From contig JAGLYT010000113.1 in NCBI GenBank assembly GCA_023132075.1, positions 1-5,482 on the forward strand: a stretch of 5,482 bases of DNA, read 5' to 3'. Below, one piece after another: positions 303 to 5,482 of this stretch. Each line of letters begins with the position of its first letter. Within the stretch, counting starts at the first letter, position 1. The translations under genes and the position numbers were made by a program. Source of the stretch: JAGLHV01 sp023132075 [NCBI: bacterium]. GTDB taxonomy: Bacteria > CBDUZB01 > JAGLHV01. Under the pieces are notes generated by a model. The model had not been told where the DNA came from and did no database searches. It was given only the letters and a program-made list of their open reading frames with translations.

Positions 303-333
303 TTGTTAACCAGAACAAAGAAAAGGTTGACAA
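303..333. promoter_or_regulatory. BirA-type biotin operator
   Basis: The half-sites TTGTTAACC (303-311) and GGTTGACAA (325-333) form an inverted repeat matching at 8 of 9 positions, separated by 13 nt. This closely resembles the BirA biotin-repressor signal (TTGTTAACC...GGTTAACAA in many bacteria; TTGTAAACC...GGTTTACAA in E. coli). The 13-nt spacer is shorter than the 16 nt of the E. coli operator. The right half-site covers the -35 box of the bioY promoter, so bound biotinyl-AMP-BirA would block RNA polymerase. BirA identity rests on motif plus position before bioY; the repressor gene is not in the window. Confidence 0.8.
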
Positions 334-355
334 TAATGATTTAATAATTTACAAT
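327..355 (+). promoter_or_regulatory. sigma-70-type promoter of the bioY operon
   Basis: A consensus -35 TTGACA (327-332) and a -10 TACAAT (350-355, one mismatch to TATAAT) are separated by exactly 17 nt. Transcription would start near 361-363, giving a short leader of roughly 33 nt before the bioY ATG, too short for a riboswitch. The -35 box lies inside the right half of the BirA-like palindrome, which predicts repression when biotin is plentiful. Confidence 0.8.
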
Positions 356-380
356 AATATAGGAAATAAAACAAAAAAAC

Positions 381-388
381 AAAGGAGG
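381..388 (+). promoter_or_regulatory. strong ribosome binding site of bioY
   Basis: AAAGGAGG lies 6 nt before the ATG at 395, a near-ideal Shine-Dalgarno sequence and spacing. It fixes the bioY start at this ATG. Confidence 0.85.
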
Positions 389-394
389 AAAAAA

Positions 395-982
395 ATGGTT
401 AGTCAATCTCTAAATCAGGTATGGTTAGCAGGGAAAAAAGAAATTATTTTAGATAAAAAGGTATGTGCAATAATCGGAGTAGGCGGGTTTATTATTGCTA
501 CGGCATTAGCTGCTTATGCGAAAATTTATTTACCCTTTACTCCTGTTCCCATAACGTTGCAAACCCTTTTTGTCTTACTTTCCGGAGCGGTATTAGGTAA
601 AAAATTAGGCGGAATATCGCAGTTGGGGTATTTGACGTTAGGTGCGGTAGGATTACCCGTTTTTACCGGTGCGGGAGGAATAGGATATTTTTTCGGTCCA
701 ACGGGAGGATATTTAATCGGATTCTTATTAGCTTCCTGGGTAATAGGTAAAATGCTGGAAGAAGAAAAAAGATTCCCGTGGGTAATTTTATCTTTTCTTA
801 CCGGAACAGTAATTATTTATTCGTTAGGCATGGTGCATTTATCAGTAGTAATGAGAATAGGAATAGGCAAGGCGTTTGCTTTAGGGGTAGCTCCTTTTAT
901 TCCCGGAGGACTTTTAAAAATAATTTTTGCCGGTTTATTATATAATAAATATAAAGCAAGGTTTAAAGCAATTTTTAAATGA
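395..982 (+). CDS. bioY: BioY, biotin-binding S component of an ECF transporter
   Basis: This 195-residue polytopic inner-membrane protein has the usual BioY length and hydrophobic profile. BioY binds biotin with high affinity and delivers it through an energy-coupling-factor transporter. Visible family signatures are KIYLPFTPVPITLQTLFVLL (about residues 43-62), the following SGAVLGKK, and the Gly-rich LGAVGLPVFTGAGGIGYFFG (about 82-101) followed by PTGGYLIGF. About 24 N-terminal residues precede the first membrane helix. No ATPase or T component (BioM/EcfA, BioN/EcfT) is present here, so it probably uses a shared module encoded elsewhere or works alone, as proposed for some solitary BioY proteins. 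It is the first gene of an operon behind a BirA-like operator and promoter, and its stop overlaps the receptor start as ATGA. Family identity is very secure; regulation by biotin is inferred. Confidence 0.95.
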   Translation: MVSQSLNQVWLAGKKEIILDKKVCAIIGVGGFIIATALAAYAKIYLPFTPVPITLQTLFVLLSGAVLGKKLGGISQLGYLTLGAVGLPVFTGAGGIGYFFGPTGGYLIGFLLASWVIGKMLEEEKRFPWVILSFLTGTVIIYSLGMVHLSVVMRIGIGKAFALGVAPFIPGGLLKIIFAGLLYNKYKARFKAIFK

Positions 983-2805
983 AAAAAGTTGCTTTTTGCG
1001 GAATAGTTAGTTATTTTATTTTTCTGCCCTTTTGTTTATGGGGGGAGACGGTTTATTTAGATACAGTACGGCTGGGAAGTTCTTTGCCCGGGAGTTTTGT
1101 TCAAAGGTCTCCCTATGTAGAAATTATTGACCAAAAAGAAATAGAAACATTACCAATTACCGCTATCGGTCAGTTGCTTGATTATACCCTGGGCGTAGAT
1201 ATGAGCAGGCGTAATCCTTGGGGAATGCAAGCAGATATTAGTATAAGAGGATGTACTTTTCAACAAGTCTTGGTGCTTATTAATGGAGTAAGAGTCAACG
1301 ACCCGCAAACAGCTCACCACAATATGGATTTTCCTATAACTATAAATGATATAGAAAGAGTTGAAATTTTATATGGTGCAGGTTCTTATCTTTACGGCGC
1401 AGATGCTTTCGGAGGAGTGATTAATCTGATAACTAAAAGGCCGCAGGGAGATAAATTTTTAAAAAGTATTCAAATAGGTTGTAGTGAATATAATACAGGG
1501 GATGTTTCTTTTTCTTTAGAGCAGGGAGGGAAATTCAGCAAAAGAATTTCTTTTCAAAAAATGAAGTCTGATGGGTTTCGATACGACACGGATTTTGATA
1601 ACAGCAATTTTTTTAGCAGTTTTACCTGGAATATGTTTGTCCCCGGGTCTGATCTCCAGCGAGGAAAAATTTCCCTGGATTTAGGATTTATGGATAAAGA
1701 ATTCGGAGCTTATGATTTTTATACACCGGGAATGAATTTCCCTTCGAAAGAATGGACAAAAACTTACCTCTCTATTCTTAAGGGGTCTTACAGCATTAAT
1801 AAAACAATAATGATTGATTCCAATTTCTCTTTTCGCCGTCATGAGGATAAATACATCTTAGATATAACCAATCCTTCCTGGTATGTAAATGAACATATAT
1901 CTTCTACTTTCGGAGGAGGTTTACAGTCTAAGTTTTTTCTTAAAGGGGCAGGGAATTTAGTTGTGGGAGGGGAAATAAATAGCGAAGAAATAGACAGTGC
2001 TTCTTTAGGAGACCATAGCCGCTTGAGGAAAGCAGTTTTTGCTGAGTATTTGCTGCCGGGACCTATTTGGAAAATGGATTTTAATACCGGTTTGCGTCTG
2101 GATTTTTCTGACTGGGGACAGATGTTATCTCCCCAAGTAGGTCTTGGGTGGGGAGTCATACCTTTTTGCGGATTGCATATGTCAGTTAGCCGTGCTTTTC
2201 GTATTCCTTCTTTTACAGAACTTTATTACCAAAGTCCGGTAAATAGCGGTAATCTTAATCTTAAACCGGAGGAAAATTTGTCTTATCAATTAAAAGTGGA
2301 TTTTTTAAGTAAAAATCAGGATAAAACAGGAATTATTTTTTTTAGAAGGGAAGAAAAAAATCTTATCGATTGGATAAAAAGGGATGAAGTTCAAACTCAA
2401 TGGTCTGCCGAAAATATAGGAAAAGTTGATTTTAACGGGGTAGAGATTTTTTTGAAGAAAAAAATAAATAAAAAAATAAATACGCAGTTGGGATATACTT
2501 ATGTTGATTCTGTCTTAAAAAAGGATAACTACCTTTCTAAATATGGATTGAAATATAGCAAACATCAAATTTCTTGCAAAATAAATCATTTTTTATATAG
2601 GGGAATTAATCATGTATGGTGTGGGGTTTACAAGAAAAAAGAAGATAGGGATTTTTTTATTTTAGATACGCGTGTACTCTTAACTATTAAAAAATGGAAA
2701 TTATTTTTAGATGTGAAAAATATTTTTGATAAGAAATATGAAGAAGTGCTTGGTATCGGGCAGCCGGGAAGATATTGGGGGAGCGGAGTAATGCTTAAAT
2801 TTTAG
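979..2805 (+). CDS. TonB-dependent outer-membrane receptor, BtuB-like; candidate biotin receptor
   Basis: The 608-residue protein is complete and BtuB-sized. Residues 1-22 look like a signal peptide (KK, hydrophobic core, likely cleavage after LWG). A possible TonB box lies just after it (ETVYLDTVRL). A plug domain spans about 43-155, with YVEIIDQKEIETLP, ISIRGCTFQQVLVLINGVRV and IERVEILYGAGSYLYGADAF. The rest is the barrel, including SRAFRIPSFTELYY at about 404-417 and a typical end, DVKNIFDKKYEE...GRYWGSGVMLKF, closing on Phe. Such receptors use TonB-ExbBD energy to import scarce large ligands (cobalamin, siderophores, heme). Its ATG overlaps the bioY stop (ATGA, 979-982) with no good ribosome site of its own, so the two are probably translationally coupled and share the BirA-like control. 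That context argues for biotin, or a biotin-containing molecule, as ligand. Cobalamin or another substrate cannot be excluded from sequence. Confidence 0.92.
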   Translation: MKKVAFCGIVSYFIFLPFCLWGETVYLDTVRLGSSLPGSFVQRSPYVEIIDQKEIETLPITAIGQLLDYTLGVDMSRRNPWGMQADISIRGCTFQQVLVLINGVRVNDPQTAHHNMDFPITINDIERVEILYGAGSYLYGADAFGGVINLITKRPQGDKFLKSIQIGCSEYNTGDVSFSLEQGGKFSKRISFQKMKSDGFRYDTDFDNSNFFSSFTWNMFVPGSDLQRGKISLDLGFMDKEFGAYDFYTPGMNFPSKEWTKTYLSILKGSYSINKTIMIDSNFSFRRHEDKYILDITNPSWYVNEHISSTFGGGLQSKFFLKGAGNLVVGGEINSEEIDSASLGDHSRLRKAVFAEYLLPGPIWKMDFNTGLRLDFSDWGQMLSPQVGLGWGVIPFCGLHMSVSRAFRIPSFTELYYQSPVNSGNLNLKPEENLSYQLKVDFLSKNQDKTGIIFFRREEKNLIDWIKRDEVQTQWSAENIGKVDFNGVEIFLKKKINKKINTQLGYTYVDSVLKKDNYLSKYGLKYSKHQISCKINHFLYRGINHVWCGVYKKKEDRDFFILDTRVLLTIKKWKLFLDVKNIFDKKYEEVLGIGQPGRYWGSGVMLKF

Positions 2806-2831
2806 TTGTCTGGTGACTAAGAAGTTTTTTT
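2802..2831 (+). terminator. possible weak terminator of the bioY-receptor operon
   Basis: TTAGTTGT (2802-2809) can pair with GTGACTAA (2813-2820) around a CTG loop. The 8 bp include three G-U pairs, and a run of seven T follows at 2825-2831. The hairpin includes the receptor's TAG stop and reaches into the last codons of the convergent gene. The stem is weak and four bases separate it from the T run, so this is tentative. Position between convergent genes is the main support. Confidence 0.35.
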
Positions 2832-3512
2832 GAGGTGACTGATAATAAAAATAATTATCTCTTTACCCCGGGTAAGGAGCCATTTCCAGATTTCCCGAGT
2901 GGTGAAATAAGTTACTTCAAAGAATTCTTTTATAGAAAAAAAACCTGCCATAGTCCATCCTAAAATTAAAGATAAAACGATAATATTCATTGACCATATA
3001 ATTACTACAGAAAAAAACATTCCGCCTTTTTGAAGGTCGGATTGTTCCTTTCTTAATGAAAAAAAACAAAAAGATAAATGAAATGACCATGAAAATCCGA
3101 TTAAAAAGATTAAGAGAGAAAAGAACTGTTTTAGGGGATAAAAAAAATTAATAGAGTAATAAATAGCTAAAATCAAGAAAGTATAAAAAGGAAAAAAATA
3201 AGGAGCCAGAGTTATTAGAAAATTAACTTTAGTGACTTGAACTTCCCCTCTGGTTTTTAATACTTTGAGTTTTTTTACTTTTCCACCAAAAGCTAACGAC
3301 CAAAGAGCATGGGTTAATTCATGTCCTAAAATGTATATACGAAAAGGGGTAAATACGAATGTTTGTAAGATCAGATAGGAAAGGAAACCGGTGATAAAAT
3401 ATATGAGCGAATAAGAACCGCCTAAAGAAAAAACCTGGGACATTAAACCGGCAACAGTTGCTATACAGACAGGAACAAGAAAAAGAGCAATTAAAAATTT
3501 AAAAAAACGCAA
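2817..3512 (-). CDS. polytopic membrane zinc metallopeptidase-like protein (M50-like, HELTH)
   Basis: This 231-residue protein is very hydrophobic, with about five or six membrane helices (near 5-25, 33-57, 99-121, 126-152, 166-192). A gluzincin-type HExxH motif appears as GHELTHALWSLAFGG: H64, E65 and H68 would bind zinc and catalyse. A second conserved-looking block is NFLITLAPYFFPFYT (97-111), and D159 in EQSDLQKGG is a candidate third zinc ligand. This arrangement resembles membrane-embedded M50-like peptidases; I do not see the classical NPxPLxxLDG motif of site-2 proteases, so it belongs to a divergent subgroup and its substrate is unknown. The start is TTG (3510-3512); an in-frame TAA lies directly upstream, so no earlier start exists. 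AAAGGAG (3524-3530) lies 11 nt before it, inside the upstream gene. The 22-nt overlap implies one transcript with the VanZ-like gene. Confidence 0.75.
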   Translation of the reverse strand: MRFFKFLIALFLVPVCIATVAGLMSQVFSLGGSYSLIYFITGFLSYLILQTFVFTPFRIYILGHELTHALWSLAFGGKVKKLKVLKTRGEVQVTKVNFLITLAPYFFPFYTFLILAIYYSINFFYPLKQFFSLLIFLIGFSWSFHLSFCFFSLRKEQSDLQKGGMFFSVVIIWSMNIIVLSLILGWTMAGFFSIKEFFEVTYFTTREIWKWLLTRGKEIIIFIISHLKKTS

Positions 3513-3898
3513 TTAAATTTTTTCTCCTTTAATTTGATTATTATAGGGATAATGATTAAAGCCAGCACTATTCCTATTGTATCGATTAATACATCAGTGA
3601 GTGAGGGACAGCGGGTGGCAACGTAATGTTGGTGTAGTTCATCGGAAATAGCAAAGAGTAAAGAAAGGCTTCCTATCCAGAGATAAATCTTAATTTTATT
3701 CCAGGAAAAAGTAATTTTAAATGCTCTCCAGAGGAGAAGAACCAGAATAAAATATTCTATTATGTGAGCTATTTTACGTAAAAAGAATCCACATTTGTAA
3801 TTAATACCTAAATTAGGAGTAGCGGAAAGAAGATAAATTATTCCCATCCAGAGAAATACCGGCATCCAGGAGTTTATGTGTTTTTTAAGTTTTTTCAT
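3491..3898 (-). CDS. VanZ-like family membrane protein
   Basis: This 135-residue protein has four predicted membrane helices (about 12-27, 45-61, 69-84, 103-122). It carries the conserved polar residues of the VanZ-like family: RKIAHIIEYF (41-50, with K42, H45 and E48) and AISDELHQHYVATRCPSLTD (83-102), then VLIDTIG, giving D86, E87, Q90, R96, D102 and D106. VanZ of the vancomycin-resistance cluster gives low-level teicoplanin resistance, but most family members are chromosomal proteins of unknown role, and nothing here suggests a glycopeptide-resistance cluster. The ATG is preceded by an AAGGA (3917-3921) at 18 nt, too far for a good ribosome site, so initiation may be inefficient. It is the first gene of a two-gene unit with the metallopeptidase-like gene. 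Family call is strong; function is unknown. Confidence 0.88.
   Translation of the reverse strand: MKKLKKHINSWMPVFLWMGIIYLLSATPNLGINYKCGFFLRKIAHIIEYFILVLLLWRAFKITFSWNKIKIYLWIGSLSLLFAISDELHQHYVATRCPSLTDVLIDTIGIVLALIIIPIIIKLKEKKFNCVFLNF
3524..3530 (-). promoter_or_regulatory. ribosome binding site for the TTG-started metallopeptidase gene
   Basis: Read on the - strand this is AAAGGAG, 11 nt before the TTG at 3510-3512 and inside the end of the VanZ-like gene. It is the only Shine-Dalgarno-like site near this start and supports TTG over the next downstream ATG (codon 24). Confidence 0.55.
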
Positions 3899-4063: not shown

Positions 4064-5482
4064 ATGGATAAATTTAAGTTGAAAACAGAATATAAGCCCA
4101 GGGGGGACCAGAAACAGGCAATAGATCTTTTAAGTAAAGGCATCAAGCAAAAAGAAAAATATCAGGTTCTTTTAGGGGTTACAGGTTCGGGTAAAACCTT
4201 TACTATGGCTAATGTAATCGCTAAAATTAACAAACCAACCTTAATTATTTCTCATAACAAGACATTGGCCGCACAACTCTATTCTGAATTCAGGCAGTTT
4301 TTTCCGGAAAATGCAGTAGAATATTTTGTCAGTTATTATGATTATTATCAACCCGAAGCCTATATTCCCCATAAAGATATATATATAGAGAAAGATTCCT
4401 CCATTAATGAAAAAATAGACCGCTTAAGACTTAGAGCGACCAGTTCTCTTCTGGAAAGAAAAGATGTGATTATTGTCGCTTCGGTTTCCTGCATTTATGG
4501 AATTGGATCTCCCGAAGAATGGGAAGAATCTCTGATAAGTTTGCAGGAGGGAAGGATAATTATGCAGGGGGATTTGCTCAGGAGTTTGGTTGATATCCAA
4601 TACGAAAGGAATGAGATGAATTTTTCCAGGGGTAAATTTCGGGTAAGAGGGGATGTAATAGAGGTTTTTCCCGCTTATTTGGAGACGGCATTACGAATTG
4701 AATTTTTTGGTGATAAAATTGATAGAATCAGCGAAATAAATCCTTTAACCGGTAAAGTGCTTAAAAGGAAAAATACTGCCTATATTTATCCGGCAAAACA
4801 TTTTGTTACCACTGCTCCCCGCAGGGAAAAAGCTATAAAAGAAATACGGAAAGAATTGGATGAACGATTGAAATGGTTTACCGGTGAAGGTAACCTTTTA
4901 GAAGCTGAGAGATTGAAAATGCGGACTGATAATGATATAGAAATGATGCAGGAAATAGGGGTTTGTCATGGAGTTGAAAATTATTCCCGTCATCTGTCAG
5001 GGAGAAAACCGGGACAAGCACCTGCCTGTTTGATTAATTATTTTTCCAAAGAGTTTCTTTTAATTGTTGATGAATCTCATGTGGCTATTCCTCAAATAAG
5101 AGGAATGTATGCAGGGGATAAGGCTCGTAAAGAAAATTTAATAAATTATGGATTTCGTCTTCCCAGTGCTTTGGATAATCGCCCTTTAAAATTTAACGAA
5201 TTTGAAAAGATAACCAATCAGGTAATTTATGTTTCAGCCACTCCCGGACCTTATGAACTGCAAAAAACTAAAGGGAAATTTATAGAACAGATCATCCGGC
5301 CTACGGGATTGGTGGATCCAAGAATAACGGTAAAACCCATACAAGGACAAATAAAGGATTTAATTTTCCAGGTAAAGCAAAGAATTGCTAAAAAACAGAG
5401 AACACTGATAACTACTCTCACTAAGAGAATGGCAGAGGATTTGAGTGATTATCTCCACCAGGAGGGATTATGTGTGAGGTAT
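4064..5482 (+). CDS. uvrB: UvrABC system protein B, N-terminal 473 residues (runs off the window)
   Basis: UvrB is the DNA-damage verification helicase of nucleotide excision repair: UvrA2 loads it onto damaged DNA and it then recruits UvrC for the dual incision. About 473 of the usual ~660 residues are present; the window ends in helicase domain 2. In order: [11 protein letters not shown] near the start (Q-motif-like), Walker A GVTGSGKT (38-45), the damage-binding beta-hairpin [12 protein letters not shown] (91-102), the UvrA-interaction domain with [20 protein letters not shown] (about 176-195), the [13 protein letters not shown] region (305-317), Walker B DESH (336-339), SATPGPYEL (391-399), RPTGLVDP (412-419) and [18 protein letters not shown] (447-464). 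The reading frame is unbroken and every expected motif is present, so the gene looks functional. It is divergent from the VanZ-like gene; I see no LexA-type box in the upstream 165 nt. Confidence 0.97.

Follow-up and report, generated by a model that had tools for sequence, protein, structure and literature searches.

Passage of biotin across the outer membrane is usually attributed to porins, and the locus described here raises the question of whether some bacteria also possess an energized receptor for it. We analyzed a stretch of 5,482 nt (hereafter the window; positions 1 to 5,482 of contig JAGLYT010000113.1, our C17) from a metagenome-assembled genome of JAGLHV01 sp023132075 (GCA_023132075.1; G000), which is 1.87 Mb in size and 87% complete. 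Here bioY, which encodes a biotin transporter, is followed by a gene for a TonB-dependent receptor. A preliminary description of the window had claimed a complete receptor gene, with its ATG overlapping the bioY stop codon (ATGA), behind a single promoter with a BirA-like operator, and these features were confirmed by Pfam, coordinates and operator scans: BioY scored 152 bits against PF02632 (cut-off 25), and the receptor, encoded by a complete gene, exceeded the Pfam cut-offs for both plug (PF07715, E 6e-21) and beta-barrel (PF00593, E 3e-25). A convergent gene lies 11 nt past the end of the receptor gene, and therefore the unit looks bicistronic. No energy-coupling factor (ECF) module (EcfA/EcfT or BioM/BioN) is encoded within the window, to which this search was confined; solitary BioY is able to transport without such a module, according to PMC6072759. 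Together with what was found in other lineages, bioY and the receptor gene probably constitute a biotin-regulated, two-membrane import operon for biotin or a close vitamer or conjugate, which would mean that vitamin B7 has an entry route of its own through the outer membrane.

The promoter ahead of bioY (TTGACA-17-TACAAT) was the top of four promoter-like sites in our scan, and BirA-regulon half-sites, TTGTNAACC and GGTTNACAA, are present at it. The BirA consensus quoted in PMC545781 is TTGTAAACC-[N14/15]-GGTTTACAA, with a predicted site at bioB of G. metallireducens reading TTGTtAACC-[N14]-aGTTgACAA, and the window half-sites match the predicted Geobacter sites given there nearly letter for letter. 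When TTGTTAACN15GTTRACAA was scanned genome-wide alongside a reversed-pattern control, the operator was the sole match with no mismatch in G000 and in its congener G001 (where one further match, on C367, had one mismatch), and the sole one-mismatch site, and thus the best, in a third species, G002; since totals at up to three mismatches were not above the control, only the best matches are informative. With GTYAACCN13GGTTRAC at up to one mismatch, the operator matched perfectly in all three genomes and no other site in them did, with one additional one-mismatch site in G000 (on C5), while the control gave 0, 1, and 0 sites. The box is kept in all three species, the DNA upstream of it in G002 being mostly diverged, and the bioY-receptor pair with its overlap is likewise kept in G001 (L059) and G002 (L058), that is, in three of the three species of the genus examined. 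The preliminary description had also seen no promoter or terminator between the two genes. The scan totals are indeed close to chance (two terminator-like matches against 0.9 +/- 1.1 expected, four promoter-like sites against 3.6 +/- 1.9), but a weak terminator-like match (883-895) and two overlapping weak promoter-like matches (913-941) lie inside bioY, so that this point calls for a minor correction.

A second lineage pairs the same genes in the reverse order. When a receptor profile, A1, was searched over 386 genomes, the best match among genomes outside profile building was in G210 (bit scores of the members that profiles A1 and A2 rank highest are inflated, since the profiles contain them). 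The G210 receptor gene (L130, 7926-9767) overlaps an upstream DUF1284 gene and is followed by bioY 78 nt downstream; in G389, of the same genus, the order is also receptor then bioY, with a gap of 46 nt, and in G340 a bioY cut at the contig end has downstream neighbors as in these two genomes. In G210 and G389 a molybdenum cofactor (Moco) riboswitch lies directly downstream of bioY, and therefore the genes that follow look like a separate unit. In a quick BioY tree, the window genus grouped with G096/G363 and others (97), and G210/G389 with G069 (95). Given the opposite gene order and the different BioY branches, the pairings in the two lineages look as if they arose independently. The genes upstream of the pair in G210 (L130, 4907-7935) encode an OYE-like enzyme (judged by eye), a radical SAM protein with B12-binding domain, and DUF1284; the Moco riboswitch (10436-10555) precedes a tungstate-type transporter, judged by eye, and likewise in G389.

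In a third lineage, the receptor gene has a BirA-type box of its own: AAGTTAACC-N13-GGTTAACAT in G368, ATGTTAACC-N13-GGTTAACAA in G240, and ATGTTAACC-N14-GGTTAACAA in G387, in each case at the −10 region, just past a promoter TTGAC(A/G) ... TATAAG/TATTAT. The boxes of G368 and G240 are perfect matches to GTTAACC-N13-GGTTAAC, and the bioY genes of these two genomes, which lie on a separate contig from the receptor, are also boxed, the one in G240 more weakly. At up to one mismatch, three sites occur in the 1.9-Mb genome of G240 against none in the control, and only that at the receptor promoter is perfect; G368 has three (control 1), namely a perfect site at the receptor, a one-mismatch site at bioY, and a perfect site inside a coding frame.

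Adjacency alone, or one operator alone, could be luck; these three arrangements in three lineages would be hard to explain unless the job of the receptor subfamily concerns biotin. Since BioY is a biotin transporter, the simplest ligand would be biotin or a close vitamer. We infer the ligand, the binding of BirA, energized transport and hand-over to BioY as follows: when biotin is scarce, BirA would leave the operator and both BioY and the receptor would be made; outside the cell, the receptor would bind biotin, a closely related vitamer, or a conjugate of biotin; a TonB-ExbB/D system would energize passage of the ligand into the periplasm; and BioY would move biotin across the inner membrane. 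The preliminary description had proposed such a receptor and had named the genomic context of homologs in other bacteria as a check. That context lends support, with the substrate still drawn from it: a subfamily receptor lies by bioY in G210 and G389, in reverse order, and behind a BirA-type box in G368, G240, and G387, although most homologs are not beside bioY, and no consistent placement with cobalamin or iron genes was seen. If the proposal is correct, biotin would join vitamin B12 and thiamine among the vitamins with their own energized outer-membrane gate, a sequence signature would be at hand to annotate biotin uptake in uncultured auxotrophs, and a receptor clade now scoring weakly as BtuB-like would gain a directly testable ligand.

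The rest of the uptake and regulatory machinery was sought in the same genus. A cluster in G000 (L333, 447-4267, on C353) encodes DUF3450, two MotA/TolQ/ExbB-type proteins, one ExbD/TolR-type protein, and one TonB_C protein, and passes the Pfam cut-offs for a TonB-energizing system (TonB_C PF03544, ExbD/TolR PF02472, and MotA/TolQ/ExbB PF01618 twice); among NCBIfam equivalogs the TolQ and TolR models scored highest, all under cut-off, so that the cluster may be of the ExbB/ExbD or of the TolQ/TolR kind. The BirA of G001 has the domains HTH_11, BPL, and BPL_C. A joined E. coli bait for BioB, BioD, and BioF (BioA and BirA were not in the query) gave no match in the BioD range in any of 11 genomes, nor one in the BioB range in the three genomes of the window genus; the search had no separate positive-control genome, but because BioB relatives at 21-26% identity were recovered elsewhere, a true BioB should have appeared. 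The BioF-range match in G000 fitted a serine palmitoyltransferase model best (577 of the 640 bits needed) and the bioF model less well (383 of 426), and is therefore below the former cut-off and not far under the latter. The BioB-like match in G387 is HydE-like and scored highest as HydE.

In a tree of 50 rows, which has long branches (E. coli BtuB being one) and rows of odd composition, the 27 subfamily rows cluster at 100/100 and exclude BtuB as well as the receptors with cobalamin riboswitches; within the clade, the window genus groups with (G057,(G210,G389)) at 82/79, and the G368 group branches off separately. Residues were counted in 21 of these 27 rows (G064, G146, G074, G337, G066, and G226 being left out) and in six BtuB-like rows. 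The plug signature comprises R78, Q84, D86, Q96, Q110, and H113 (21/21) together with F94, T111, and P119 (20/21), and is absent from the BtuB-like rows (0/6) except for Q96 and Q110 (2/6 each). Barrel residues T204, F242, A244, E258, D290, and Y522 occur in at least 20 of the 21 rows and in none of the six, and all eight biotin-linked rows have H114 and N115, which are absent from all six BtuB-like ones. The stretch Q110-H113 presumably aligns with the plug segment of BtuB that contacts cobalamin. An AlphaFold2 model of the window receptor (predicted local distance difference test, pLDDT, 76.4; predicted template-modeling score, pTM, 0.80; residues 1-43 of low confidence) matches plug-and-barrel receptors over residues 27-608. 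Foldseek placed Cir first and BtuB third, while VIA-align placed BtuB first (1nqf, Z 38.5, root-mean-square deviation 2.3 Å, 514 residues aligned), followed closely by PirA, ChuA, and Cir; by sequence profile, BtuB was the nearest chain in the PDB (152 bits). The sequence starts with MKK and a hydrophobic stretch, followed by WGETVYLDTVRL, and may thus include a signal peptide and a TonB box.

Compared with E. coli BtuB, the B12 receptor, the window receptor has the same plug-and-barrel fold, small size, and apparent association with vitamin import, but the two share only about 21% identity, R78, Q84, D86, F94, T111, and H113 are absent from BtuB, the receptor falls outside the BtuB clade, and it has a BirA-type operator where no cobalamin riboswitch was found. 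A parallel in arrangement is OMthi, described in PMC6977713 as a TonB-dependent receptor for thiamine in Bacteroides that is encoded near the inner-membrane transporter PnuT; vitamin and transporter differ, and the likeness drawn here concerns the kind of ligand and the gene arrangement. As proposed for the window, bioY-type genes of Bacillus and Staphylococcus are under biotin- and BirA-dependent control (PMC4016012, PMC6391492), but these bacteria lack an outer membrane, whereas the operator in the window would also drive an outer-membrane receptor. No biotin receptor of this kind was listed among the open-licence papers searched, a prior description elsewhere being possible.

How general the association is was assessed from the surroundings of bioY in 102 of the 131 genomes with BioY, many of the stretches spanning only 1.5 kb per side or limited by the contig; second BioY copies of G122 and G259 were excluded, and of the remaining 29 genomes 28 had no receptor match in the A1 search and one, G337, had a weak BioY match. 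On a box-score scale of 20, with 15.5 or more taken as high, high-scoring boxes lie upstream of 2/26 subfamily receptors against 0/76 other receptors (the G387 box, with N14, reaching 15.0), of 7/101 bioY genes (three of these from the window genus), and of 6/1303 other open reading frames (ORFs), three of which are the same physical sites as the receptor or bioY boxes. Outside the window genus, BioY co-occurs with the subfamily in 9/15 genomes against 119/368 (Fisher p 0.029), at a threshold of 340 bits picked after the list was seen and uncorrected for kinship.

Several observations weigh against the proposed biotin import operon. The receptor adjoins bioY in only 4 of the 102 genomes (G000, G001, G002, and G210), three of them from one genus, the G389 pair having been found via the receptor search instead, and adjacency occurs in only two of about nine lineages that hold both genes. 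Six of the 15 subfamily genomes outside the window genus are without BioY, and for the members of G057, G056, G069/G391, Bacteroidota, and Chlorobiota neither an adjoining bioY nor a high-scoring box was seen. The receptors of G210 and G389, both of which closely follow another gene, have no visible box upstream, and the box of G368 lies also 109 nt ahead of a divergent gene. The operator spacing is N13, or N14 in G387, against N14/15 in the consensus of PMC545781. As for the regulator, no biotin protein ligase match was found in G002 (97% complete), the ligase gene of G000 is truncated where its contig ends, and among the genomes of this genus, to which the search was confined, the DNA-binding domain of BirA was seen in G001 only. 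Further, BirA control is biotin-related but not necessarily a sign of biotin import, and the ligand is inferred from gene context and regulation.

Three other explanations have to be weighed. That the receptor binds cobalamin, or another nutrient, and merely shares a biotin operon seems very unlikely. Its best NCBIfam model is indeed TonB-B12 (TIGR01779), and BtuB ranks first in both the sequence-profile and the VIA-align comparison; however, the score of 156.1 bits is far from the equivalog cut-off of 599.7, similarity to the fold of BtuB reveals no ligand, and BtuB and the BtuB-like receptors of L061, L080, and L081, which do have a cobalamin riboswitch, fall outside the subfamily at 100/100. 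By contrast, the window has no such riboswitch (Rfam, gathering threshold), and none was found in the regions that hold the biotin-linked receptors of G210, G389, G368, G240, and G387, or beside the receptors of L077, L078, and L060, the single riboswitch of L078 lying by other genes. Cut-off, tree, and absent riboswitch led us to reject a cobalamin receptor as first choice. Less improbable, but still unlikely, is that the receptor imports a bound or larger biotin compound, such as biocytin or biotinylated peptides, which would be cleaved in the periplasm before BioY imports the biotin, free biotin entering via porins. The size of biotin permits passage through porins, and this reading would predict identical regulation and an identical gene pairing. 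However, no amidase or biotinidase was recognized in the operon or among the scanned or by-eye receptor neighbors in G210 and G240, and thiamine, which is similarly small, has a TonB-dependent receptor of its own, OMthi (PMC6977713).

The pairing might also be hitchhiking, in which case the receptor would take up some ligand common to the subfamily, such as a peptidoglycan fragment, and would have joined biotin promoters by chance. Such a role fits the Parabacteroides distasonis member, which lies just past a gene for NamZ, and most distant members, which are without recognized biotin context, but it requires a coincidence in three lineages, with rough chance estimates (2,000 genes per genome assumed) of P ~4e-5 for adjacency in two of nine lineages and ~5e-5 for the single perfect box of G240 falling within 100 nt upstream of the receptor; we regard it as improbable. 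In the opposite direction, it is possible, although rather doubtful, that the whole subfamily (GxQxD...G..F.Q...Q(T/S)xH; Bacteroidota, Chlorobiota, and many other lineages) represents widespread outer-membrane receptors for biotin or its vitamers, which would have been overlooked since their best score is a weak one to BtuB, and that, where bioY is missing, a different carrier would take biotin across the inner membrane. The notion that all subfamily members sit with bioY was rejected, since most do not.

Features of the window that bear on the proposed import operon, with coordinates
Feature	Position	Strand	Evidence
BirA-type operator TTGTTAACC-N13-GGTTGACAA	303..333		Genome pattern scans, conservation in three species, Geobacter-like half-sites
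Sigma-70-like promoter TTGACA-17-TACAAT, −35 overlapped by operator	327..355	+	11 of 12 matches
Shine-Dalgarno-like AGGAGG, for bioY	383..388	+	Sequence
bioY (195 aa), S component for biotin or solitary transporter	395..982	+	PF02632, E 1e-44
ATGA shared by the bioY stop and the receptor start	979..982	+	Sequence; also in L058 and L059
Proposed outer-membrane receptor for biotin (TonB-dependent, 608 aa)	979..2805	+	Pfam plug and barrel, AlphaFold2, fold lists
Part of the plug that holds the subfamily signature (R78, Q84, D86, F94, Q96, Q110, T111, H113, P119)	1210..1335 (codons 78-119)	+	Alignment counts

The neighbors of distant subfamily receptors (G057, G056, G069/G391, Chlorobiota L060, Persicobacter, Parabacteroides, and others) are other than bioY, and include an SSF-like gene near the G057 receptor (by eye), a PALP-family enzyme, FdhD, a CitMHS-type transporter, and NamZ; in the 20 subfamily neighborhoods inspected, neighbors were mostly judged by eye and few were scanned. 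An FdhD gene, scanned in G069 only, is directly upstream of the receptor in G069 (L131, 3046-5639; 4-nt overlap) and G391 (L331, 7206-9788; 3-nt gap). In P. distasonis NZ_OY725790 (L148, 8606-11863) the receptor lies 6 nt past a gene for the exo-N-acetylmuramidase NamZ. NamZ was recognized in 1 of the 20 neighborhoods, and was dismissed as a sign of a peptidoglycan ligand for all members. In G260, which has no strong subfamily match (best E 3e-14), bioY and a divergent gene have a BirA-type box, GTGTCAACC-N13-GGTTGACAT, in common (L190, 2585-4260). A TonB-dependent receptor gene at about 25% identity adjoins a RepB gene on the large Vibrio plasmid NZ_OQ622009 (L150, 5977-7800), with similar matches on several others.

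Elsewhere in the window, broken short reading frames upstream of the operon (84-270) are perhaps a gene remnant. Downstream, a 231-aa ORF on the minus strand (2817-3512), membrane-rich and with a HELTHA motif, appears zinc metalloprotease-like by eye and had no Pfam or NCBIfam match at E 0.001; at higher coordinates are a VanZ-family gene (3491-3898, minus strand) and the start of uvrB (4064-5482, plus strand). Within the operon, DNA identity to G001 (L059) falls to 75-87% in the second half of bioY (window 620-1000), against 95% in the stretch before it and 91-97% over most of the receptor gene, which looks like a recombination tract.

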